The translations under genes were made by a program, and so were the position numbers. Positions 32,856-62,828 of a stretch of 64,000 bases of DNA are shown piece after piece. Each line of letters starts with the position of its first letter. The stretch's first letter is position 1. Below the pieces are notes generated by a model. It saw only the letters and a program-made list of their open reading frames with translations, searched no databases and was not told the origin of the DNA. The stretch covers positions 1-64,000 of the forward strand of contig JADPRS010000014.1 in NCBI GenBank assembly GCA_015686845.1, given 5' to 3'. Source of the stretch: Lutibacter sp. B2 (lineage in GTDB: Bacteria > Bacillota > Clostridia > Peptostreptococcales > Thermotaleaceae).

Positions 32856-33929
32856 ATGCATAAACACATTTATCAATCAAAAACCATTTACAAATTTATA
32901 AAAAAGGTATTTCCACAAGTGAAAAAAGAATTATCCCACTGGAAAAATTACGCTGATGCAATCCCTGATGAAGTATTATCTCATCAAGCCATCTCAAGTA
33001 TACAAAAGAAGACTTTCCACGCCCAAGGAGGATGTATTTACAGTCTATATTATGGTAAAGTCAACAAAGAACTCATTCGATTTATTGTAGCCCTTCAAAC
33101 AATTAGTGATTATCTTGATAATCTATGTGACCGAGTAGGTGTCGGAAATGAAAAATCTTTTTTACAGCTTCATTATGCCATTACAGATAGTTTAAATCCC
33201 GATGAAAATTTTCATGATTATTATAAGTATTATCCTTATACGAATGACGGAGGTTACCTCTATGCTTTAGTAAAAACGTGTAAAAATTATATAAATACAT
33301 TGCCAAGTTTTCATTTGGTTCAAGACAACGCTTTATTTTTAGGGAAATTATATAGTGAAATGCAAAGCTACAAACATATATCAAAAGATAGAAGAGAACA
33401 AGCATTAGATGCTTGGGCAAGTAATCATCTTCATTTGTATACAAATCTATCTATATGGGAATTTTCTGCTGCAGCAGGTTCGACACTAGGAATATTTCTA
33501 CTTTGTACCCTCAGTGAAAATAAAAAATTAGATGAAATAACCGTAAAAAAGGCAATGAATGCCTATTTTCCTTATATATGTGGACTTCATATTTTACTCG
33601 ATTATTTTATTGATGAAAGAGAAGATCTACTTGAAGGAGATTTAAATTTTGTATCTTACTATCAAGATGATCTAGAAAAAGAAAAAAGACTAACTTATTT
33701 TTTAAAAGAATCTCTTAGTAAAGCTTTACATCTTGAAAATTCATTATTCCACATAACGGTTATCGAAGGACTCTTATCCATGTATCTTTCTGATCCAAAA
33801 ACAGATTTTGAAGTTGAAAGAAATATTTCTAAAAAAATATTGAAAACTTCCTATTACACTACAAATATTCTCTATTCTTCCTGCAAATTATTAAGAGTAA
33901 AAAAAATAATAGGACATGGTTCAAAGTGA
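32856..33929 (+). CDS. YtpB-like tetraprenyl-beta-curcumene synthase (DUF2600)
   Basis: The product (357 residues) belongs to the DUF2600 family, whose Bacillus member YtpB cyclises heptaprenyl diphosphate to tetraprenyl-beta-curcumene, a C35 sesquarterpene. Family-type acidic motifs are seen in QTISDYLDNLCDRVG, GLHILLDYFIDEREDLLEGD and LNFVSYY. I choose ATG 32856, ten bases after AAAGGA; an in-frame ATG at 32811 has no such site. A polyprenyl diphosphate synthase lies convergent next to it and could supply the substrate. The product in this organism is unknown. Confidence 0.85.
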   Translation: MHKHIYQSKTIYKFIKKVFPQVKKELSHWKNYADAIPDEVLSHQAISSIQKKTFHAQGGCIYSLYYGKVNKELIRFIVALQTISDYLDNLCDRVGVGNEKSFLQLHYAITDSLNPDENFHDYYKYYPYTNDGGYLYALVKTCKNYINTLPSFHLVQDNALFLGKLYSEMQSYKHISKDRREQALDAWASNHLHLYTNLSIWEFSAAAGSTLGIFLLCTLSENKKLDEITVKKAMNAYFPYICGLHILLDYFIDEREDLLEGDLNFVSYYQDDLEKEKRLTYFLKESLSKALHLENSLFHITVIEGLLSMYLSDPKTDFEVERNISKKILKTSYYTTNILYSSCKLLRVKKIIGHGSK

Positions 33930-33949
33930 AGTGATAAGGTAAATAAAAA

Positions 33950-33970
33950 AACCCATTAAATCAATGGGTT
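33950..33970. terminator. Shared terminator between the terpene synthase and polyprenyl synthase
   Basis: AACCCATT pairs with AATGGGTT (8 bp, 5-nt loop), with A and T runs on either side, so it can serve both convergent genes. Confidence 0.8.
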
Positions 33971-34940
33971 ATTTATTCCGAATCAATACCTTCTCTGCAA
34001 TTCCTATGAGCATATCCTTATAAACTGAATCCTCTATAATATTTAATGCTTCTTGTGCTTTTTCTACACAATGTTGTGCTTCATTAAAAGCTTTCTCTAA
34101 AGAATCACTATCCTTTAAAACCCTTAAAATTTGATGATCATTTTCTCCTATGGTACCTTTTTCAAATATTTCCTTTATCCAATCCTTATATTCTCGTTGA
34201 TCCATTAATTTTAATATAGGTAAGGTAATATTTCCTTCTTTTAAGTCACTTCCTACTGGCTTTCCTAGTATGTTTTCATCTCCTGTAAAATCTAATACAT
34301 CATCTATGATTTGATACGCATATCCCAAATTTTCTCCATAAATCCTAAACGCTTCTATTTGTTCTTCATCTGCACCTGCTGTTATTGCTCCTGCTTGAGT
34401 ACATGCAGCAATTAAAACACCCGTCTTTTGATAAATACGACGATAATAATCTTCATGGGTTTGATCTAAATTAAATAAATTTTCTGCTTGAAAAATCTCT
34501 CCATCACACATTTTACTAATGGCATCCACAATCACTTCCATGCTTCTTACAAGTTTATGCTTAGAAAGAATTCCAAAAGCCTTTGCGAATAAATAATCCC
34601 CTACTAAGACAGCCGTATGATTCCCTTTTTGTGCATTGATCGTGGCCTCGTTACGTCTCATGACTGATTCATCAATGATATCATCATGAACTAAAGATGC
34701 CATATGGATACATTCACAAGCTGCTGCAGCTTGTATTCCTTCTTTCGTTATTTTTCCAAAACATCCTGCTGTACAAAGAACAAGAGCAGGACGTATTCTC
34801 TTTCCGCCTGATGTAATCAATCTTTTACATATGTTAGAAGTGTTTTCATGGCTATCTTTTAATATATTAAATAATTCTTCCTCTACTAAATTCATCCCTA
34901 TTAGTTCTTTGATTTTTAATCTTTCCGCTGTTTTAATCAA
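33969..34940 (-). CDS. Polyprenyl diphosphate synthase (HepT/IspB type)
   Basis: The 323-residue all-helical enzyme extends allylic diphosphates with isopentenyl diphosphate. The first aspartate motif is VHDDIIDES, the second QIIDDVLDF, with GGKRIRPALVL near the N-terminus and SDLKEGNITLPI after the second motif. Length and motifs fit long-chain (C30-C40) synthases. Without menaquinone genes nearby, its chain length and use cannot be fixed; the adjacent YtpB-like gene suggests a C35 product (inference). Confidence 0.9.
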   Translation of the reverse strand: MIKTAERLKIKELIGMNLVEEELFNILKDSHENTSNICKRLITSGGKRIRPALVLCTAGCFGKITKEGIQAAAACECIHMASLVHDDIIDESVMRRNEATINAQKGNHTAVLVGDYLFAKAFGILSKHKLVRSMEVIVDAISKMCDGEIFQAENLFNLDQTHEDYYRRIYQKTGVLIAACTQAGAITAGADEEQIEAFRIYGENLGYAYQIIDDVLDFTGDENILGKPVGSDLKEGNITLPILKLMDQREYKDWIKEIFEKGTIGENDHQILRVLKDSDSLEKAFNEAQHCVEKAQEALNIIEDSVYKDMLIGIAEKVLIRNK

Positions 34941-35131
34941 GTTTTCAACCTACTTTCTATATTCTCTTTATAGAAAGTATTTGCCAATTTCAAGACATAT
35001 AAACATTTATTTCTTTAAACTATTGAATTTAAAAATAACAACAAACTCAAATTTATGAGTTCTTTGTTTATTCTGTTAACTCATATGTGATTATAAAAAA
35101 CAAATCATTTAATGCTCAATATACACAACAT

Positions 35132-35164
35132 AATGTTGACTATATTCAACATTATCATTATAAT
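35132..35164 (+). promoter_or_regulatory. Consensus promoter with palindromic operator before the XRE gene
   Basis: TTGACT (35136-35141) and TATAAT (35159-35164) are 17 bp apart, a near-perfect sigma-A promoter. An 8-bp inverted repeat (AATGTTGA at 35132-35139, TCAACATT at 35146-35153, 6-nt spacer) covers the -35 and the spacer. Binding of the encoded repressor there would block transcription, so autoregulation is likely. Confidence 0.8.
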
Positions 35165-35185
35165 GAATATTATCGGAGGTGTTTT

Positions 35186-35413
35186 ATGGCAAAACGTAAA
35201 AAAATATTTAATACAAAAATAAAAGTTCTTAGAGCTGAAAGAAATTTAACCCAAGAAGATTTAGCAATAGATTTAGGCGTAAATAGGGGAACAATTTTAG
35301 AAATTGAAAGGGGCACTTTTAATCCTTCCCTTAAACTTGCCTTCTCTATAGCAAAATATTTTGATAAAACCATCGATGAAATTTTCCAACCATTGGAGGA
35401 GATTGAAGAATGA
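35186..35413 (+). CDS. XRE-family transcriptional regulator (Cro/C1 HTH)
   Basis: A 75-residue protein that is almost only a helix-turn-helix domain: IKVLRAERNLTQEDLAIDLGV, NRGTILEIERG, PSLKLAFSIAKYFDKTIDEIF. The start is ATG 35186, 7 nt after CGGAGG; upstream in-frame codons overlap the promoter. It ends in ATGA, overlapping the next gene, a membrane protein, so the two are coupled. Such pairs of small XRE repressor plus membrane protein are common in Firmicutes, but their roles are seldom known. Confidence 0.92.
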   Translation: MAKRKKIFNTKIKVLRAERNLTQEDLAIDLGVNRGTILEIERGTFNPSLKLAFSIAKYFDKTIDEIFQPLEEIEE

Positions 35414-36033
35414 TTAATTTAGGAGAACAGTTACTAAGTATACAATCAGGATTGGCCTCTATTATAAGTGCACTATTTTTATTACTCTTATTAATGGATA
35501 AAGATGAATTGGAGCAATCTGCATTTAATAATTCATTAAAAATTTCTACTGTAATAACCATCCTATCCTTACTTGGATATAGCTTATACATGCCATTATC
35601 AGGATTTGCAAAGGTTAGTATTAATATACTCTTTTATGGAATCGAAGGTATGTGTATATTGACGTCATTACTATATTACATGGATTTAAAAGGCATTACT
35701 TTTGAAGTTAAGATTAAAAATCAGCGAGTAGCAAATATATTAATATATAGTTCAACCACTATAAGTGTTCTTGCAACAATTAGCCTGTTATTTGAATTTA
35801 CATTTTTCGAAAATAAAATAGGATTCATTAGATATGACGAATTAATTTTATTTATAAATATAATATTAATTTCAATAATAATACCTCTACTTCCAAAGAG
35901 AAAACAACTTGACCGGAAGGAATATAAAAAATTACAGAAAGAGCTTGATAAAAGCTTTAACATTCTATATGCAATTTATAGCATACTCATGTTATTAATT
36001 ATTTCATATTTAATTTACCAAAAAGTAATTTAG
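35410..36033 (+). CDS. Membrane protein of unknown function, coupled to the XRE regulator
   Basis: I do not recognise a family. The 207-residue protein has about six hydrophobic segments (near 8-30, 43-63, 67-92, 101-123, 133-155, 180-203), two charged loops (after DKDELEQSA and around PKRKQLDRKEYKKLQKELDK) and no signal peptide. The start overlaps the regulator stop by four bases, so both are made from one message. A role in membrane stress or drug response would be a guess. Confidence 0.75.
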   Translation: MINLGEQLLSIQSGLASIISALFLLLLLMDKDELEQSAFNNSLKISTVITILSLLGYSLYMPLSGFAKVSINILFYGIEGMCILTSLLYYMDLKGITFEVKIKNQRVANILIYSSTTISVLATISLLFEFTFFENKIGFIRYDELILFINIILISIIIPLLPKRKQLDRKEYKKLQKELDKSFNILYAIYSILMLLIISYLIYQKVI

Positions 36034-36073
36034 ATTGTACATGAATAAATAGTTTCTTACCTATATATTCAAA

Positions 36074-36105
36074 AAAGAATAGTATCCATAATGGATACTA
36101 TTCTT
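36074..36105. terminator. Convergent terminator between the membrane protein and yxeA-like gene
   Basis: AAAGAATAGTATCC pairs with GGATACTATTCTTT around a short loop, flanked by A and T runs. Confidence 0.85.
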
Positions 36106-36107
36106 TC

Positions 36108-36512
36108 CTATTTCCCGAGCAATTTTTCTTTTACTATTTGCGGCAACTGATTTTCTTGCACCTCTTTATAGTCTGCTATACTATTTATTTTCTTTTCACT
36201 TTGACTAATAGTCTCAATGCTTAAAAAAGCACCTATCTTCAAATTCTTATTTGCATCAAATCGTACCTTTATCTCTTTACCTTCTTTGTTATATGCAACC
36301 GTTTCATAATAGTATCTGTAAAAATCCTCTGATACTTTTTCACCATTTTTTACTTCCTGCTCAAGTAATATTCTTTCACCATCTTCTGTGATCTGCACAA
36401 AGTATTCTTCATGCCCTAAGTGTTTAAGATTAAACCAGTTGTTTTTTTCAGCTACACCTAAAAATACAATACTTACTAAAACAATAACTAATACCGTTGT
36501 TATCTTTTTCAT
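36108..36512 (-). CDS. YxeA family protein (DUF1093)
   Basis: The 134-residue product has an N-terminal signal or anchor helix (about 4-21) and the YxeA fold features: HEEYFVQITEDGER, YETVAYNKEGKEIKVRFDANKNLKIGAFLSI split over strands, and ADYKEVQENQLP near the end. Bacillus YxeA lies beside a bacitracin-type ABC transporter; here no transporter is adjacent. Function unknown, probably extracytoplasmic. Confidence 0.8.
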   Translation of the reverse strand: MKKITTVLVIVLVSIVFLGVAEKNNWFNLKHLGHEEYFVQITEDGERILLEQEVKNGEKVSEDFYRYYYETVAYNKEGKEIKVRFDANKNLKIGAFLSIETISQSEKKINSIADYKEVQENQLPQIVKEKLLGK

Positions 36513-36672
36513 ATAATAACACCTCTTCTTTTAAATTTTTTTCTACCTATTACAAATTCATTTTGCTTCATAAGCAATCACCTCATAATGTATTATCATC
36601 ATAATACCAAGTTTTAATTTGTTTGTCAATATTTATTTATCGTAAAACAATAAATAAATATCGTTTAAAATA

Positions 36673-36701
36673 AAAAAGTCCCTTACCATCGGTAAAGAAC
36701 C
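36673..36701 (-). terminator. Terminator of the small membrane protein gene
   Basis: On the minus strand CTTTACC pairs with GGTAAGG (one G-T pair), followed by GACTTTTTT. Confidence 0.6.
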
Positions 36702-36738
36702 AACATATCTTTTTCTTCAAATACAATATTCATTCCTA

Positions 36739-37137
36739 TCAAGCATAATAAATATCTATCTTTTTATTACGCTTCTTTGCTAGCCCTACTATTTTCTCTA
36801 CATTTTCAGCATCTACAATGGCTTTTTGCCCCATATCTTCCTTTGCAAAAAACATCAGAGCTTTATCATTTCTTTTTTGAATACTAATATGCTTCATTTG
36901 AGCAAACTTGATCATTTTTTCTTTTTTTCTTCTTATTCTCTTTATTTGAATCAATACGCCTTCATCCTCGATAGAAACTTCTTTTTCATATAAAGAAACA
37001 TAAATCAAAAGTACGCCTATGAATACCTTAAGATACTGCTGATCCTTTATGGAATCCCCAATCAATACGATTAAAATTCCTACGATCAAATATTGATACA
37101 CAGAAGATAGTTTGTTATGCTTATAAGTCTTAATCAT
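36739..37137 (-). CDS. Small membrane protein, unknown
   Basis: No family was recognised. The 132-residue protein has two close hydrophobic segments (about 13-27 and 34-50) and a basic cytoplasmic domain that looks like a short bPH-type sheet (KEVSIEDEGVLIQIKRIRRKKEKM, KHISIQKRNDKALMFF in separate strands). It starts at ATG after AGGAAGAATA and is monocistronic. Confidence 0.65.
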   Translation of the reverse strand: MIKTYKHNKLSSVYQYLIVGILIVLIGDSIKDQQYLKVFIGVLLIYVSLYEKEVSIEDEGVLIQIKRIRRKKEKMIKFAQMKHISIQKRNDKALMFFAKEDMGQKAIVDAENVEKIVGLAKKRNKKIDIYYA

Positions 37138-37293
37138 ATTATTCTTCCTTTCTAAGCCTATTTATTTTTGTGTATGCATTAATATAACATTGTAGATCAA
37201 CAAATACATTATATCTATTCCTTATACTATCACATTAATTACCATATTTTCAATCTTTATTAGAATTTTTAGATTATTTCGTCACAGTATAAA

Positions 37294-37328
37294 AAAATGA
37301 AGAGCCCATTATTACGACTCTTCATTTT
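37294..37328 (-). terminator. Terminator of recJ
   Basis: AAAATGAAGAG pairs with CTCTTCATTTT (11 bp) around a 13-nt loop, just after the recJ stop. Confidence 0.8.
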
Positions 37329-37336
37329 CTATTCTT

Positions 37337-39106
37337 CTATCTATAATCTTGTATCACAATCTGTAAAGTTCTATTTCCTCTATACTCGTTAATGGAAGGT
37401 AAATACGTTATGTCTATCTCTATATTATTAGGCTGTCCTGCAAAAGCATTGTTCAACGCTTCACGCCCAAACTTACCAGCAAGATACTCTTGCATGGAAT
37501 CCACGTTTCCAAAGTGAATGCCTGTTAAAATTCTTCCATTTTTGCTTACTAATGCCATTTTCATAACCTTATAATCCTTGCCCAATATATCAATTTTCTT
37601 AATTTTTACACCTTTCTCTGCAAATAGTGGTTTACGATTTCCTTTTCCAAAAGGTTCTAATATCTTTAATTCTTCTGGTAAATGATTGGATACCATATCC
37701 AGTGGAACATGGGCGTCTATATAAACGATTGGAATAAGATCCTCTTCTGTTAAGATTGTTTTCTCATTTAATTGATCTCTTAGCTTATCTATATTTGAAA
37801 AATCTAAAGAAAGCCCTGCTGCCATAGGGTGTCCACCAAACTTACATAATAAATCTTTGCATCTTGATAACTCTTCAAACATATTATATACTTCTATAGA
37901 TCTTGCCGAACCTTTGGCCATTCCTTCTTCTTTTGATTTTGTTAAAACAATCGTAGGTTTATTATATTTATCTTTTACTCTACCTGCTATAATACCTGCT
38001 ATACTCTCATGAATACTTGGCTCATATACGACTAACACTTTATCCTTTATAAGCTTACTTGATTCTATCTGTTCAACAACTTTTTCAAGTCCAGCTATTG
38101 TCATGGCTTTTCTTTGTTCATTTAAATCATGTAGCTTTTTTGCATATATTTCTGCTTTTACAGGATCTTTTGTTAAAAACAGTTTTACTGCCATTTCAGC
38201 ACTGTCTAACCTTCCAGAAGCATTGATACATGGTCCTAATACAAATCCTAAGGAATACGTATTTACTGCTTTGTCTTCCATTCCGGTGGCCTTAATAAGG
38301 GCTTGTAATCCTATGTTATTTGTTGTATTTATTCTTTTTAAACCTTCCCTTACAATAACTCTATTTTCATCTATTAAGTCCACGACATCACAAACAGTGG
38401 CCATAGCAACAAACTCTAATAATTCATAGGACTCTTCTATGGGAATATTCATTTCTTCATAAAGAACTTGAATAAATTTAAAGGCAACGCCAGCTCCACA
38501 AAGTTCCTTAAAAGGGTACTCACAATCTAATCTTTTAGGATTTATAACGGCATCTGCTTCAGGTAAGAAATATTCTTTTTCTTCTTTCTCATTTTCAACA
38601 TAAGGAATATCGTGATGATCCGTTACGATTACGCTCATACCTAATTCCTTTGCAAGTTTTACGGGTTCTGCTGCTGATATGCCATTATCACAAGTGATGA
38701 TCACATCAATACCATCCCTTTTAGCTTCTTCTATAATTCGTTCATTGATTCCATACCCATCCATAACCCTATGAGGAATTACATAATCTACATTGGCTCC
38801 ACATCGTTTTAGTCCATTATAAAAGGTTATAACTGAGGAAGTTCCATCTTGATCATAATCCCCACAAATCCTTATTTTAAGCCTTTTATAGATACTTTCT
38901 TTGATTCTATTTACACCTAATTCCATATCTTTCATACCTCTTGGATTATGGAATTTATTTATATCTGGATTTATGAAACTATCTATTAATTTAAAATCTT
39001 TTATATTTCTATTTATTATTATTTTACAAATAAGTTCACTTACACCAAAATTACTTGATAGCTTTTTATAATCAGCTTTACTATTTTTTAATATCCATTT
39101 TTGCAA
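37337..39106 (-). CDS. recJ: Single-stranded-DNA-specific exonuclease RecJ
   Basis: A 5'-3' exonuclease in recombination and mismatch repair. The 589-residue protein has the DHH metal motifs ICGDYDQDGTSS (motif I), TCDNGISA, VTDHHDIP, INPKR, the FKFI linker, the DHHA1 part (CKFGGHPMAAGLSL) and a C-terminal OB fold (VKIKKIDILG). It starts at TTG 39106, 9 nt after GAGGGG. Its length is at the short end of the family, without the C-terminal extensions of some clostridial forms. Confidence 0.93.
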   Translation of the reverse strand: MQKWILKNSKADYKKLSSNFGVSELICKIIINRNIKDFKLIDSFINPDINKFHNPRGMKDMELGVNRIKESIYKRLKIRICGDYDQDGTSSVITFYNGLKRCGANVDYVIPHRVMDGYGINERIIEEAKRDGIDVIITCDNGISAAEPVKLAKELGMSVIVTDHHDIPYVENEKEEKEYFLPEADAVINPKRLDCEYPFKELCGAGVAFKFIQVLYEEMNIPIEESYELLEFVAMATVCDVVDLIDENRVIVREGLKRINTTNNIGLQALIKATGMEDKAVNTYSLGFVLGPCINASGRLDSAEMAVKLFLTKDPVKAEIYAKKLHDLNEQRKAMTIAGLEKVVEQIESSKLIKDKVLVVYEPSIHESIAGIIAGRVKDKYNKPTIVLTKSKEEGMAKGSARSIEVYNMFEELSRCKDLLCKFGGHPMAAGLSLDFSNIDKLRDQLNEKTILTEEDLIPIVYIDAHVPLDMVSNHLPEELKILEPFGKGNRKPLFAEKGVKIKKIDILGKDYKVMKMALVSKNGRILTGIHFGNVDSMQEYLAGKFGREALNNAFAGQPNNIEIDITYLPSINEYRGNRTLQIVIQDYR

Positions 39107-39167
39107 AGTACAATCCCCTCTTTCCTTTTAACATGATTTTAATTTTATAACTATTTTTACTACTATG

Positions 39168-39225
39168 AAAATACCCCATAGGGTCGACTTTTTTATTTGT
39201 CTACTCTATAGGGTACTTTTTTTTA
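39168..39225 (-). terminator. Terminator of the ftsE-ftsX-envC-like operon
   Basis: On the minus strand TACCCTATAG pairs with CTATGGGGTA (one G-T pair) around an extended loop and is followed by TTTTC. It lies 25 bases after the peptidase stop. Confidence 0.65.
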
Positions 39226-39250
39226 AAAATCAGCCTTTTTTACTTATGTC

Positions 39251-40378
39251 CTATCTTCCTTTAAGCCACGGAAGTGGATCCGTATATTGACCATTTTTTC
39301 TTACCTCAAAATGTAGATGCGGTCCGGTAGAGTTTCCGGTACTACCTGATTTGGTAATTGCCTGTCCTCTTTTTACATTTTGCCCTACTTTTACAAGCAA
39401 CGTAGAATTGTGTGCATATAAAGTAACAATTCCGCCCCCATGGTCAACCATAACTGCTTTTCCATATCCACCATACCAGTTAGCCATAATGACCTTTCCA
39501 TCTCCTGCAGCAACTATGGTTTTTCCATAAGGTACACCAACATCTATTCCTGTATGCATTTTCTTTCTCTTTAATATTGGATGAATTCTATATCCAAAAG
39601 GAGAAGTAATTCTTGTATATCCTGGCGCAGGCCAATTTAATTGCCCCCCCACATACTTACCAGTAGATTGCTTCCTTCTAATTTCCTCTGAAAGCTTATT
39701 TGCATAAGCATTTAATTCATCTATTTGTTTTTCAAATTTCTTGCTATCTTGTTTTATTAACTCTTTTGTTTTAATCATTTCTCCTATATCTATTTTTAAT
39801 TGTTTTTGTTTTGTCTCCATATTACTGATCATAATAGACAGATTTCTTTCATAAGCTTCAAGCTTTTTCTTTTTCTCATCTATCTCTTCTCTTCTTTGTT
39901 TCATAATTTCTAATAATTCCATATCCTGATTAAAAATTTTCTTTACCATATCCAAATTTGAAAGAAGATCAATAACGCTGTCAGACTCTAATAAAACTTG
40001 CATATATCCAACCTCTCCATTTTTGTACATAGCCCGAAGCCTCTTAAGCATTATATCATCTTGTTCTGTAACTTGTTGCGTAGCATCTTCTAATTCCTTT
40101 TTTGCAACCTCAATATTCTTTTTAGTTTGTGAAATTTTAGAATTTAAGTTTTCAATTTCATTTTGGTTGTTATCTATTTTGGCATCTAATGTATTCATTT
40201 GAGCAGTAACATTTTTTTCTTTCTCTTTATTGTTACTTAATTTATCTTTAAAATCTTTTATTGTATTTTTTACATTGTTTAATTTATCTTTTTCGATACT
40301 ACTATTATCTGCAAAGCTGTTTCCTGTAAAAATCAACATGACAATGCAAATGAATAAAACGATTCGTTTTTTATACAT
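39251..40378 (-). CDS. EnvC-like murein hydrolase activator / M23 peptidase
   Basis: The 375-residue secreted protein has a signal peptide (1-23), two long coiled-coil segments (about 28-110 and 160-240) and a LytM/M23 domain (250-373) with MHTGIDVG, YAHNS and GPHLHFE, which keep the zinc ligands H-x3-D and HxH. So it may be an active endopeptidase rather than only an activator. Encoded directly after ftsX, it is probably the periplasm-side partner that FtsEX controls, like PcsB or CwlO. Confidence 0.92.
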   Translation of the reverse strand: MYKKRIVLFICIVMLIFTGNSFADNSSIEKDKLNNVKNTIKDFKDKLSNNKEKEKNVTAQMNTLDAKIDNNQNEIENLNSKISQTKKNIEVAKKELEDATQQVTEQDDIMLKRLRAMYKNGEVGYMQVLLESDSVIDLLSNLDMVKKIFNQDMELLEIMKQRREEIDEKKKKLEAYERNLSIMISNMETKQKQLKIDIGEMIKTKELIKQDSKKFEKQIDELNAYANKLSEEIRRKQSTGKYVGGQLNWPAPGYTRITSPFGYRIHPILKRKKMHTGIDVGVPYGKTIVAAGDGKVIMANWYGGYGKAVMVDHGGGIVTLYAHNSTLLVKVGQNVKRGQAITKSGSTGNSTGPHLHFEVRKNGQYTDPLPWLKGR

Positions 40379-40393
40379 TTTCTCCTCCTACTC

Positions 40394-41296
40394 TTAAACC
40401 CTAAGAAATTTCCTCATAGAAATAATACTTCCTAAAACCCCTATTCCAATACCTAAAACAGCAATTATAATGGCTATACTTTTAATAAATACAGGGGCCG
40501 GAACCATATATACAGCAATCATTACGTATACTTTTTGTGTAATCAAATCAAAAACGTATTTGTATCCAAAGCTTATAACTCCTATTGCAATGGCAGAACC
40601 CATTACCCCTAATATCATCCCCTCAATCATAAATGGACAACGTATAAACCAATTAGTAGCCCCTACATATTTCATAATACCAATTTCTTTTTTTCTAGCT
40701 ATAACTGTTAGCTTTATAGTGTTCGCAACAACAAACATAGAAATAAGAATTAATACGCCAATGACAATCAATCCTGCTAATCTAATAAAATCTGTTATTT
40801 TTAATATTTTCTCAACAAGGTCTTTATAGTATCTCACTTCTTCTAGTCCTTGTAATCCTTTTACTCTTTTTACTACTTCATCTGCATATCTCATATCCAT
40901 CAATTCTACTACATATGAATTTGGTAGAGGATTTTTCTGTAGTCCCTCTAAAAGATATCCATTTTCTCCCCACTTTTTCTTCATATTATCTAGTGCTTTT
41001 TCCTTTGATAAAAAATATACGCTTTTTACTCCATCTATACTTTTTACACTTTTACCTATGTTCTGCATATCGCCATCACTTAAATCGTCCTCTAAGTCTA
41101 GCTGTATCGTATCAAATTGCCCTTTTGTAATTTCTGAAAAACTATTTATATTGATTACAATCATAAATACAATTCCTAAAATCATGAGTACAGAAGCAAT
41201 AGAAGTAATAGATGCTATACTCATCATTCTATTACGCCAAGACCCCTTAATGCCTTGCTTTATAGAGTATATTATCGTTCTAGTCTTCATAGCCAT
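40394..41296 (-). CDS. ftsX: Cell-division ABC transporter permease FtsX
   Basis: FtsX with four membrane helices: one near residue 30-55 (VLMILGIVFMIVININS), a large extracellular loop (60-160) that senses or drives the hydrolase, then three helices near the C-terminus. Family marks include KQGIKGSWRNRMMS and ARKKEIGIMKYVGATNWFIR. I choose ATG 41296, 5 nt after AAGGG; it overlaps the ftsE stop. Another in-frame ATG (41290) is possible; ATG 41338 lies deep inside ftsE. Confidence 0.92.
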   Translation of the reverse strand: MAMKTRTIIYSIKQGIKGSWRNRMMSIASITSIASVLMILGIVFMIVININSFSEITKGQFDTIQLDLEDDLSDGDMQNIGKSVKSIDGVKSVYFLSKEKALDNMKKKWGENGYLLEGLQKNPLPNSYVVELMDMRYADEVVKRVKGLQGLEEVRYYKDLVEKILKITDFIRLAGLIVIGVLILISMFVVANTIKLTVIARKKEIGIMKYVGATNWFIRCPFMIEGMILGVMGSAIAIGVISFGYKYVFDLITQKVYVMIAVYMVPAPVFIKSIAIIIAVLGIGIGVLGSIISMRKFLRV

Positions 41297-41966
41297 ACAC
41301 ACCCTTCTGATCATCTCGTACAATTTTGCCATTTTCAATTGCTATAACCCTTTGTTGCATCATATCTACAATGTCTTTTGCATGGGTTGCCATCAATATT
41401 GTTGTTCCTCTTCTATTAATTTGTTTTAAAAGTTTCATGGTCTCCCATGCGGTCTCTGGATCTAAATTTCCAGTTGGTTCATCTGCAATTAGCACGGATG
41501 GATTATTTACAATCGCCCTTGCTATTGCTACTCTTTGTTGTTCTCCACCGGAGAGCTGATGTGGAAACATATTCGCCCTATCACTAATTCCTACCAGTGC
41601 TAGTACGTTTGGGACTTGTCTACGTATTTCCTTAGGACTTGTATTGATCACTGCCATAGCAAAAGCTACATTTTCATATACAGTCTTATCTTGAAGCAAT
41701 CTAAAGTCTTGAAATACCACGCCCATTTTTCTCCTCAAATGAGGAATCTTTCTTTGACTAATCCTTGTGATATCCTTCCCATCAATTTTAATTTTTCCTA
41801 TTGTGGGATCTATTTCTTTTAATAGAAGCTTAATAAAAGTAGATTTACCCGAACCACTAGGCCCCACTAAAAATACAAATTCGCCTCTATCTATATTTAC
41901 AGTCATATCCGAAAGTGCCATTTTATCTTCCTGATATTGTTTTGTCACATTTAAAAATTTTATCAT
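41280..41966 (-). CDS. ftsE: Cell-division ABC transporter ATPase FtsE
   Basis: The 228-residue ATPase has Walker A GPSGSGKST (35-43), Q-loop VVFQDFRLL, signature LSGGEQQRVAIARA and Walker B VLIADEPTGNLD. It works with FtsX to turn on cell-wall hydrolases at division or during elongation. It heads the ftsE-ftsX-envC-like operon. Confidence 0.96.
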   Translation of the reverse strand: MIKFLNVTKQYQEDKMALSDMTVNIDRGEFVFLVGPSGSGKSTFIKLLLKEIDPTIGKIKIDGKDITRISQRKIPHLRRKMGVVFQDFRLLQDKTVYENVAFAMAVINTSPKEIRRQVPNVLALVGISDRANMFPHQLSGGEQQRVAIARAIVNNPSVLIADEPTGNLDPETAWETMKLLKQINRRGTTILMATHAKDIVDMMQQRVIAIENGKIVRDDQKGVYGYED

Positions 41967-42194
41967 TCTATCAACTCCTACTATTCTATATAATTCTACA
42001 TAACATATAATATTCCCTCTTACATTTTACCATGATTTTTAATGTATTTTGTCCAAAATGAGTATATTTTTTATTTTAATTTATAAATCCCCAAATATCG
42101 AATGTAATTTATATCAATTACACTAATTTCTTGAAGGATAACTATTATTTATAGCGAAATTTATATTAATATACTTTTTAAAGGAGTGGATCAT

Positions 42195-42779
42195 GTGAAA
42201 AAACAATTACGCTCAGAAATATTAAATGAAAGAAAAAATTTACCCATTCCGATTGTATCAGAAAAAAGTGGAAAAATTTCCGAATTACTTAAGAGTATGA
42301 ATCTTTATAAAAATGCTCAGAGCGTTATGGTCTATATTGATTTTAGGAATGAAGTTAAGACAAATGATATAATCAATGACTTACTTTCTAAAAACAAAAG
42401 AGTAGTCATTCCTATTAGCATCCCTGAAACTAGAGAAATGATTTTATCCCAATTATTAAATCCAGGAAAAGAGTTAACAAAGGGAACCTATGGAATTTTA
42501 GAACCTAAAAAAGAATATATAAGAGAAGTAAATCCAGAAACCATTGATTTAATCTTAGTTCCTGGGGTAGCTTTTGATGAGGAAGGATATAGACTTGGAT
42601 ACGGTGGAGGATATTATGATCGTTTCCTAGATAAATTGACTAAAAATATACCTTCCATTGCATTAGCCTTTGATCTTCAAATCATGGAAAAAGTTCCAAG
42701 AGATGTTCATGATCATGCTGTAGATTCTATTGTTACAGAAAGCAGAATCATCTCGTGCAATCAAAAAGACCAACAGTAA
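42195..42779 (+). CDS. 5-formyltetrahydrofolate cyclo-ligase
   Basis: Converts 5-formyl-THF to 5,10-methenyl-THF with ATP. The 194-residue product shows the N-terminal KKQLRSEILNERKNL, the substrate loop EVKTNDII, and the nucleotide-binding DLILVPGVAFDEEG with RLGYGGGYYDRFL. I choose GTG 42195, 8 nt after AAGGAG; the GTG at 42186 overlaps that site. It is the only plus-strand gene between 36 and 61 kb, monocistronic with its own terminator. Confidence 0.92.
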   Translation: MKKQLRSEILNERKNLPIPIVSEKSGKISELLKSMNLYKNAQSVMVYIDFRNEVKTNDIINDLLSKNKRVVIPISIPETREMILSQLLNPGKELTKGTYGILEPKKEYIREVNPETIDLILVPGVAFDEEGYRLGYGGGYYDRFLDKLTKNIPSIALAFDLQIMEKVPRDVHDHAVDSIVTESRIISCNQKDQQ

Positions 42780-42794
42780 AATGTTGGTCTTTTT
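42763..42794 (+). terminator. Terminator of the cyclo-ligase gene
   Basis: AAAAAGACCAACA pairs with TGTTGGTCTTTTT (13 bp), overlapping the stop codon. Confidence 0.9.
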
Positions 42795-42795
42795 A

Positions 42796-45198
42796 TTAAT
42801 GGATGGATGCATCCTTTTTTTTATTTTTTGTGGAAAATTGTTTTAGTTTTTCATTTACGAGATAGAAAACTGTATTTTCAGTGTAATCTCCATCTTCACC
42901 GCTTGCCTTCATTCCTGTAAGAATTTCTATTCCTTCTTCAATGTTTTTAATGGCATAAATATGGAATACCCCTTTTTCAATTGCTTCAATCACTTCATCA
43001 TTTAACATTAAATTTTTCACATTTTGATGTGGAATCATAACCCCTTGCTTACCTGTTAAACCTTTTAATTTACATACTTTATAAAACCCTTCTATTTTTT
43101 CATTCACACCACCAATTGGTTGTATCTCTCCTCTTTGGTTTACAGATCCTGTAACTGCTATAGATTGCTTAATGGGTACTTCAGAAAGGCTAGAAAGTAG
43201 GGCATATAGTTCTGTACTAGATGCACTATCTCCATCTATGCCTGAATACAATTGTTCAAATACAATATTCGCTGATAAGGCTAAATGTCTTTCCTTAGCA
43301 AATTTACTTCCTATATATCCATTTAAAATGAGTACGCCTTTATCATGAATGCTACCACTTTTTTTGACTTCTCTTTCTATATTGATAATTCCATCTTTTC
43401 CTATATACGTAGTAACCGTTATTTTACTTGGCTTTCCAAATGAATACTCTCCTGTCCCCGTCACTGCTAGACCATTGATTTCTCCAACTTTTTCACCGTC
43501 TACCTCTAAAAGCAATGTTCCCTCTTCAAACATCTCTAATATCTTTTCTTCATATTTATTATTTCTTTTTATTTTATTTAAAATTGCCATATTTACATGT
43601 TCTATACCAACGATATCATCATTCATCTTCTTTGCATATCGATCTGCCTCATATACAATTTCCACCACTTTATTAAATTGTGCACTTAATTTTTTCTGAT
43701 TTTCTGCAATTCTTGAACTATACTCAATGATTTTAGCCACAGCCTGTTTATCAAAATGCTTTAAATTCTCTTTTTCACAATGGGTAGCAATGAATCTTGC
43801 CATTTTATAAATAGTTTCATCATTTCTATCCATCTCAATATCAAAATCTGCCATGATTTTAAATAATTTTTTAAAGTCCTCATCATAGTGATACAGTAAT
43901 TGATAAGTATATGGGTCTCCAATCAAAATTACTTTTATATCTATTGGAATAGGCTCTGGTTTAAGGGTTGATGTAATCAGATATCCATATTGTTTATCTA
44001 ATCCCTCTATTTCTATTTTATTTGTCTTAAGTACTCTCTTCAATGCATCCCATGCAAAAGAATTTGATAGTAAATCTTTCGCTTGTAATATCAAGTAGCC
44101 TCCATTTGCACGATGTAATGCACCAGGCTTAATCTGTGTTATATCCGTTTTCATAACACCTAATTCATTCTTATATTCAACTCTACCTATTAAATTATAA
44201 TAGTTAGGATTTGTCTCATTAATAATAGGCGCATATTCTAATTCACTATGATCTATGAACAAATTAACTTTGTATCTGTCAAAAAAAGACTCTGTCGATC
44301 TCACCTGAAATATAGCCAATGGGTTATTTGCATCTTTTGTCTTTTCTGATTTAAATTCATGAATGTGTTCTACTATATCCTCTTTTAAATCCTTTAAATA
44401 CGCCTGTACACATCGGGAATCTAAAAATTTATCCTTCATTTTACTTATATAAAAATCAACTGCATTACATCCCATCTTTTTATCTAATTCTTTTACTTTT
44501 ACTCTAAATTCTTCTTCTAATGAACGTAATTTATTGAAACCTTCAATAGATTCAACGCTCAAATTAGCAGAATTTACTCTTAAGGTTTCCGTCTCTTCTG
44601 TAGAAAGATTTTTATATTCTTCTTCATTTAGTGCTTTCCCTTCTTTTAAAGGCATTGTAATTAATCCTCGTTCTGTTTTAATAAATATAAATCCATATTG
44701 TTTAGCAATACTATTTAATGCTTCAATCCCTTCTTGGGTATAATTTTGATATTCCTGAATTAATGCATTTTTTTGATTTTCATAATCCTTGCTCATAAAA
44801 ACCTGAGGTATTTCTTTTTTAAATCTTTCAACGATATCTGCTATACTTTCCTTTAAAATCTTGCCCTTACCACTTTTAACTTTAATTGCAATAGGGCTAT
44901 CTGGCTTTTGAAAATTCCTAACATATACCCAGTCATCTGGTCTTTTATTTTTTTGTGCCTTATCTTTTACAATTGCATGTACATAACTATTTCTACCTGT
45001 TCCACTTTGTCCAGATACAAAAATATTGTATCCGTTCTTCTTTATATCTAATCCAAATTCTAATGCATCCGTAGCCCTGTTTTGCCCTATAATACCTTCC
45101 AAGGGTTTTAAATCTTGTGTCGTATTAAAATCTAACTGATCCATATTAATCTTATTTTTTAATCTATTATGATCTACTTCATATTTTTCTATATTCAT
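42796..45198 (-). CDS. Lon-family (S16) ATP-dependent protease, LonB-like
   Basis: The 800-residue protein combines an N-terminal AAA-type module (GQNRATDALEFGLDI, SGQSGTGRNSYV as P-loop-like region at about 58-69) with a long helical insertion and a C-terminal S16 protease domain (about 570-770) whose catalytic serine lies in GDSASSTEL and lysine in GGVNEKIEGFY. The P-loop reads GQSGTGRN with arginine in place of the lysine, as in the AAA_32 family, so it may not act as a classical ATPase. It is distinct from standard Lon, which has an N-terminal substrate domain. Confidence 0.85.
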   Translation of the reverse strand: MNIEKYEVDHNRLKNKINMDQLDFNTTQDLKPLEGIIGQNRATDALEFGLDIKKNGYNIFVSGQSGTGRNSYVHAIVKDKAQKNKRPDDWVYVRNFQKPDSPIAIKVKSGKGKILKESIADIVERFKKEIPQVFMSKDYENQKNALIQEYQNYTQEGIEALNSIAKQYGFIFIKTERGLITMPLKEGKALNEEEYKNLSTEETETLRVNSANLSVESIEGFNKLRSLEEEFRVKVKELDKKMGCNAVDFYISKMKDKFLDSRCVQAYLKDLKEDIVEHIHEFKSEKTKDANNPLAIFQVRSTESFFDRYKVNLFIDHSELEYAPIINETNPNYYNLIGRVEYKNELGVMKTDITQIKPGALHRANGGYLILQAKDLLSNSFAWDALKRVLKTNKIEIEGLDKQYGYLITSTLKPEPIPIDIKVILIGDPYTYQLLYHYDEDFKKLFKIMADFDIEMDRNDETIYKMARFIATHCEKENLKHFDKQAVAKIIEYSSRIAENQKKLSAQFNKVVEIVYEADRYAKKMNDDIVGIEHVNMAILNKIKRNNKYEEKILEMFEEGTLLLEVDGEKVGEINGLAVTGTGEYSFGKPSKITVTTYIGKDGIINIEREVKKSGSIHDKGVLILNGYIGSKFAKERHLALSANIVFEQLYSGIDGDSASSTELYALLSSLSEVPIKQSIAVTGSVNQRGEIQPIGGVNEKIEGFYKVCKLKGLTGKQGVMIPHQNVKNLMLNDEVIEAIEKGVFHIYAIKNIEEGIEILTGMKASGEDGDYTENTVFYLVNEKLKQFSTKNKKKDASIH

Positions 45199-61260: not shown

Positions 61261-61368
61261 CGTTAATCACCCTTTTAATATATTTTTTCTTTATTTATTT
61301 TATCATATCATAATAGATCTACAATAGATTTAATTACTATGAAATATCTATATTTTTTCAATAGATAA

Positions 61369-61397
61369 TTGACTCTTATATTTCATTGTGGTACATT
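61369..61397 (+). promoter_or_regulatory. Promoter of gdhA
   Basis: TTGACT (61369-61374) and TACATT (61392-61397) are 17 bp apart. The -10 is imperfect. The start codon is about 95 bp downstream, leaving room for the operator in the leader. Confidence 0.5.
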
Positions 61398-61436
61398 CTT
61401 ATTAGATTAATTGTTACCATTTTTTCAAACTATAGT

Positions 61437-61454
61437 TTGTTAAGATATTAACAA
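61437..61454 (+). promoter_or_regulatory. Perfect Rex-type operator before gdhA
   Basis: TTGTTAA-GATA-TTAACAA is a perfect 7-4-7 palindrome identical to the clostridial Rex consensus (TTGTTAA, any four, TTAACAA). Rex is the NADH/NAD+-sensing repressor. The site lies 36 bp before the gdhA start and downstream of the predicted promoter, where bound Rex could block elongation or a second promoter. Confidence 0.75.
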
Positions 61455-61457
61455 TAA

Positions 61458-62828
<1,371 letters not shown>

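Follow-up and report, generated by a model that had tools for sequence, protein, structure and literature searches.

Introduction

The Clostridiaceae operator of the NADH sensor Rex has the consensus TTGTTAANNNNTTAACAA, which PMC8457756 and PMC9600882 quote from Ravcheev et al. 2012, and the targets named in these two papers include butyrate and alcohol, hydrogenase, glycolysis and similar genes. A glutamate dehydrogenase gene of C. thermocellum was reported without differential expression under redox perturbation (PMC4676874), and the 'GdhA' of one Rex study is labelled leucine dehydrogenase (PMC4162614). No report of Rex control of gdhA was found in the literature searched, which consisted of openly licensed papers, with Ravcheev et al. 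2012 represented by the papers that cite it. The site of the nitrogen regulators GlnR and TnrA is TGTNAN7TNACA, with 7 bases between the half-sites, and GlnR site II shows that a site can repress from a position downstream of +1 (PMC6191146). Stem-loops at the 5' end that stabilise mRNAs are also known (PMC7509114).

The window analysed here (64,000 nucleotides of contig JADPRS010000014.1 of Lutibacter sp. B2, Thermotaleaceae) carries a perfect match to the Rex consensus in front of gdhA. The site resembles the Clostridiaceae operator in its 14 fixed bases and its spacing, and a rex gene is present in the genome; unlike that operator, it precedes an apparently NADP-type gdhA, is not conserved and lies downstream of the putative promoter. 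We predict, tentatively and with somewhat less than even confidence, that this 18-mer is a Rex operator in the gdhA leader, gained in this lineage.

Results

The palindromes upstream of gdhA

The features of the region are as follows.

61369 to 61374, plus strand: -35 hexamer TTGACT; the same hexamer and 17-base spacer occur before gdhA in the relatives G010, G001 and G013
61392 to 61397, plus strand: -10 hexamer TACATT, with a putative +1 at about 61404
61410 to 61455, plus strand: inverted repeat of 46 bp, with arms 61410-61432 and 61433-61455, 78% complementary, no spacer
61427 to 61438, no strand assigned: AAACTATAGTTT palindrome, tip of the larger inverted repeat, overlapping the Rex-type site by 2 bases
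61437 to 61454, no strand assigned: Rex consensus match, TTGTTAA-GATA-TTAACAA, by consensus match and matrix score
61477 to 61482, plus strand: Shine-Dalgarno sequence AAGGAG (by eye)
61491 to 62828, plus strand: gdhA, glutamate dehydrogenase, 445 aa, closest to NADP-specific enzymes among solved structures

The 18-bp palindrome TTGTTAAGATATTAACAA at 61437-61454 agrees with the clostridial Rex consensus at 14 of 14 fixed positions (0 mismatches). It was called intergenic by the ORF scan, and 36 bases separate it from the gdhA start codon. Its half-site spacing, TGTTA-N6-TAACA, fits Rex. The first-pass annotation had described this palindrome as the only such site in the window, with a second palindrome of 12 bp abutting it and no such site at an operon claimed to encode a hydrogenase. 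Both palindromes were found where they had been placed, and the 18-mer was the sole 0-mismatch match to the consensus in the window; at the presumed hydrogenase operon, the best core match in the 286 bases on the 5' side had 4 mismatches. The 12-bp palindrome overlaps the 18-mer by 2 bases instead of abutting it.

Frequency of the motif

In the window, 17 matches to the consensus with up to 3 mismatches were found, compared with a mean of 20.6 in shuffles, which is no excess. The whole genome (3,240,965 bases, 77 contigs) contained one exact match, namely the gdhA site, and the reversed control pattern also matched exactly once. Looser matches were without clear excess in this genome, with 89 versus 73 for the control at up to 2 mismatches, 4 versus 5 at up to 1 mismatch and, when the 12-base core was used with no more than 1 mismatch, 42 versus 51. 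Over 16 family genomes there were 2 exact matches versus 6 for the control, the second one lying inside a coding sequence, and a summed 93 versus 82 at up to 1 mismatch. On these counts the Rex motif by itself is weak evidence, and its location is what counts. Under Markov models fitted to the window, 0.0013-0.003 exact matches are expected in the window and 0.07-0.16 in the genome, figures that take no account of the site standing directly in front of a dehydrogenase gene. Chance could produce a perfect match 36 bases upstream of a start codon, but this is unlikely.

A weight matrix was also built from 15 family sites, which were chosen by the analyst. The gdhA site scored 21.0, above all 15 sites that went into the matrix (best 20.8), and it ranked first among gdh upstream regions, where the next score was 15.7.

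Conservation before other gdh genes

Nine family genomes carry a gdhA orthologue (79-87% identical). A scan of the orthologous promoters, which the first-pass annotation had proposed as a check, showed that the site is not kept: in a family search that took in just one genome of the same genus, none of the nine orthologues had a Rex site with fewer than 3 core mismatches in the 120 bases preceding the start codon. Core matches with 3 mismatches were the best, in G001 (at -65), G009 (-37) and G013 (-32), and the other six orthologues had 4 or 5; a 2-mismatch site was present further up in G015, at -195. Among 80 named gdh loci, including two (L072 and L088) with only 97 and 254 bases upstream, no core site with up to 1 mismatch was found within 350 bases, and seven loci had a site with 2 mismatches. 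The 184 gdh upstream regions (up to 300 bases, paralogues included) yielded one exact match, that of the window, none with 1 mismatch and 16 with 2.

When the matrix was run over the 183 other gdh upstream regions, 16 scored 12 or more, whereas shuffled sequences gave 1.7 on average and permuted matrices 2.4. This excess of weak hits was not relied on as support. The hits cluster by genus, many of them start with a -35-like TTGAAA or TTGACA, the sites used to train the matrix had been hand-picked, and the contrast shrinks against real upstream regions (17/123 versus 12/237 at score 10 and 8/123 versus 5/237 at score 12, some of the control regions being the same divergent DNA).

The Rex protein and Rex-like sites

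The absence of a rex gene had been named beforehand as refuting Rex control, and a rex gene was found. The genome has one match, on contig 41 (214 aa; NF003990, 336.9 bits with a cut-off of 233), which also passes the thresholds of several NCBIfam models for Rex and of the Pfam domains, and its closest solved structures are Rex proteins, 3wg9 first. All 16 family genomes matched the Rex DNA-binding family, three of them with two matches, and the DNA-binding stretch FTASQIRQDLNNFGGFGQQGYGY was identical across 16 aligned family Rex proteins, save one residue in two of them.

The relatives contain 89 sites that deviate from the consensus by no more than 1 mismatch, of which 28 were inspected with their neighbours, plus one site of the genome under study; 11 of these 29 distinct sites touch a reading frame. 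Rex-like sites lie 23 bases before abfD in G006 and G007 (HpaB family by Pfam, gene named by eye), 62 bases before an AdhE-type gene and 72 bases before an iron-sulfur operon in G006, and 122 bases before a malic enzyme gene in G008 (the last three identified by eye). Judged by eye, abfD, adhE, the malic enzyme gene and the iron-sulfur operon are usual Rex targets. Sites were also present 324-402 bases before an Asp-Al_Ex permease gene (Pfam) in G006, G007, G009 and G010. A Rex-like element after rex and before bcd (acyl-CoA dehydrogenase, by eye) was present in 12 of 16 genomes with up to 2 core mismatches, and in one more with 3. The conserved element just 3' of rex in L149-L159, L161 and L162 ends in TTAACAA, mostly as TTGAYATnnnATTAACAA, and is followed in the same loci by a terminator-like hairpin with GTAC repeats, before bcd.

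In the genome under study (G000), the rex-bcd element can be aligned with that of the relatives but is eroded, and abfD (91% identical to that of G007) has at best one intact half-site. No homologue of the AdhE-type protein or of the Asp-Al_Ex permease was found in this genome at E 1e-30, an empty result that shows little. When up to 2 mismatches to the 14-base pattern or up to 1 to the core are allowed, the genome has at least 72 sites; of those 72, 17 are intergenic. The best intergenic runner-up among the sites listed was TTGTTAAAAATATAACAA, between tig (by eye) and the glutamate 2,3-aminomutase gene eam (TIGR04368), more than 200 bases from the apparent eam promoter.

G000 C23, 14150 to 14167 (loci L002 and L240): Rex-like site tig/eam, within a longer palindrome (by eye)

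The genome has two close eam copies, and no Rex-like site was found before the second copy or before the eam of G001. A weaker Rex-like site lies 100 bases before a gene resembling a 5-oxoprolinase subunit (by eye).

Promoter and leader of gdhA

The hexamer pair TTGACT-N17-TACATT (61369-61397) recurs before gdhA as TTGACT-N17-TAAATT or TAAGTT in G010, G001 and G013. Because these promoter hexamers, shared with the relatives, lie upstream of it, the 18-mer probably sits in the 5' leader, at about +33 to +50 as counted from the putative +1. The RNA fold predicted from about +1 spans 61405-61459, with the AAACTATAGTTT stretch at its tip. Over 60 nt, z was -5.2 and -5.0 (1 and 0 of 1000 shuffles, respectively, folded equally well), and over 116 nt it was -2.3; the 18-mer on its own is a -3.5 kcal/mol hairpin.

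A -10 element within AAACTATAGTTT (TATAGT) was considered and rejected, as it has no properly spaced -35 (by eye) and the upstream hexamers are common to the relatives. No terminator or attenuator was found in the gdhA leader. Rfam gave 11 sub-threshold hits, none of them on the leader; most were located at the end of gdhA and in the hairpin that follows the gene. The predicted fold allows CATTTCTC (window 61465-61485) to base-pair with GGAGATG at the gdhA Shine-Dalgarno sequence.

The two glutamate dehydrogenases

For the GdhA of the window, the best alignment was with the NADP-specific 5ijz (628 bits); 1bgv, which we take to be the C. symbiosum enzyme, scored lower (518 bits). The order was reversed for a second gdh product, encoded on contig 41 downstream of rex (711 bits with 1bgv, 558 with 5ijz). 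1bgv was taken as NAD-specific, the term used in the title of its mutant 1aup. Following the nucleotide-binding turn, the window GdhA has the motif CDSAGYIVD and the rex-linked enzyme LSGPDGYIYD; the best NCBIfam model is named NADP-specific for both. From these comparisons, the window GdhA appears to be NADP-type and the rex-linked enzyme NAD-type. If this cofactor reading is right, the fermentation enzyme would be expected to be the rex-linked one. That control of gdhA would couple the fermentation of amino acids to the redox state, as proposed earlier, does not follow, because GdhA resembles the NADP-type enzymes and the NAD-type gdh lies in the rex cluster.

Discussion

If the 18-mer is a Rex operator, a Rex dimer bound to it at a low NADH/NAD+ ratio would stop RNA polymerase soon after its departure from the upstream promoter, the operator at about +33 to +50 acting as a putative roadblock. 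A rise in NADH would be predicted to release Rex and allow gdhA to be transcribed. What stands of the operator first proposed is a perfect site in a genome that has rex, with a Rex recognition region as in relatives that have near-consensus sites; set against it, the site is unconserved, is probably in the leader and lies within a larger hairpin. The operator reading is weakened by its absence from all nine orthologous promoters, the lack of a motif excess, the eroded bcd and abfD sites, the NADP-type look of the enzyme, the larger hairpin and the negative C. thermocellum result.

The feature of importance could instead be a 5'-terminal stem-loop of the gdhA mRNA that protects the transcript against decay or tunes its translation, the Rex match being an accident of an A+T-rich hairpin. 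We consider this rather unlikely, though by no means far-fetched. Both palindromes belong to this one structure, and a stem-loop would account for the second palindrome and for the hairpins seen in two relatives. The z of about -5 from about +1 and the inverted repeat at 61410-61455 argue for a stem-loop, although z falls to just -2.3 over 116 nt and the 5' end is itself a predicted one. Among the three relatives that share the promoter hexamers, two had a hairpin of other sequence starting near +1 (G010, z -2.6; G001, z -2.3), and the third, G013, had none (z +0.3). Folding was stronger in the ten family gdhA leaders than in 189 control leaders (Mann-Whitney p 0.009, or 0.024 with the window left out), but 10 of the 189 controls folded equally well (z at or below -3.9), and no structure was seen in three of the ten family leaders. 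With eight genes of another family added (18 in total), the mean z was -0.76 versus -0.55 in 68 controls, and the mean z of 166 other gdh leaders was -0.30. The perfect Rex consensus of an off-centre 18-mer is also left unexplained by a stem-loop. As in the aprE leader of B. subtilis (cited in PMC7509114), the gdhA stem-loop would lie at or near the putative 5' end; unlike that stem-loop, the gdhA hairpin, known by its predicted fold, also holds a perfect protein-binding consensus. The operator and stem-loop readings are not fully exclusive: the same DNA encodes the leader hairpin, and Rex control and an effect on the mRNA could both occur.

Less probable still, and in our view distinctly doubtful, is that an A+T-rich leader happened on the 18-mer and that neither Rex binding nor a hairpin matters. 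The reversed control pattern was as frequent in this genome (1 versus 1) and commoner over 16 genomes (6 versus 2), and the lack of conservation before orthologues and the eroded Rex-like sites elsewhere are consistent with chance. Such an accident must be reconciled with just 0.07-0.16 exact matches expected per genome, and with an estimated few percent of the genome lying within 60 bases before a start codon. Hardly any credence is given to the use of the palindrome by a GlnR/TnrA-type nitrogen regulator. Although gdhA is a nitrogen gene, the TGTTA/TAACA half-sites resemble the TGTNA/TNACA letters of the GlnR/TnrA site and a repressing site downstream of +1 has a precedent (PMC6191146), the half-sites are 6 bases apart and not 7, and this one-base difference in spacing led to the rejection of the candidate. 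The stretch 61261-61490 contained no copy of TGTNAN7TNACA even when 1 mismatch was allowed, and at this stringency the window as a whole had 45 matches versus 47 expected.

Should Rex bind the gdhA site, apparently NADP-linked glutamate synthesis would be placed under an NADH sensor in a clostridium, and a lineage-specific gain to the regulon would stand beside losses at older targets. Should Rex not bind, the site would be a warning that a perfect match to a consensus in an A+T-rich leader may be a hairpin. A more speculative scenario, which we judge very improbable, is a rewiring of Rex in this species, away from the bcd and abfD sites that relatives retain and towards the glutamate node (gdhA best, then tig/eam and 5-oxoprolinase), with the gdhA operator doubling as an RNA hairpin, so that one stretch would serve both DNA and RNA control.

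The rex-gdh cluster in the family

The rex-gdh cluster of this genome lies on contig 41 of G000, 33500-43500 (L147), and those of the relatives are L148-L162. A gdh gene is found a few genes downstream of rex in 15 of the 16 family genomes (not in G008), mostly after bcd-etfBA (by eye). The rex-linked gdh of G013 is without bcd-etf, and a shorter GDH-like protein occupies the rex-linked gdh slot in three genomes. Palindromes of the GTTAAAAAATTAACAA type, which closely resemble the Rex motif, were observed 119-236 bases before the rex-linked gdh in L151, L152, L162, L158 and L159. These palindromes, present in five genomes of three genera, are conserved better than the gdhA site of the window.
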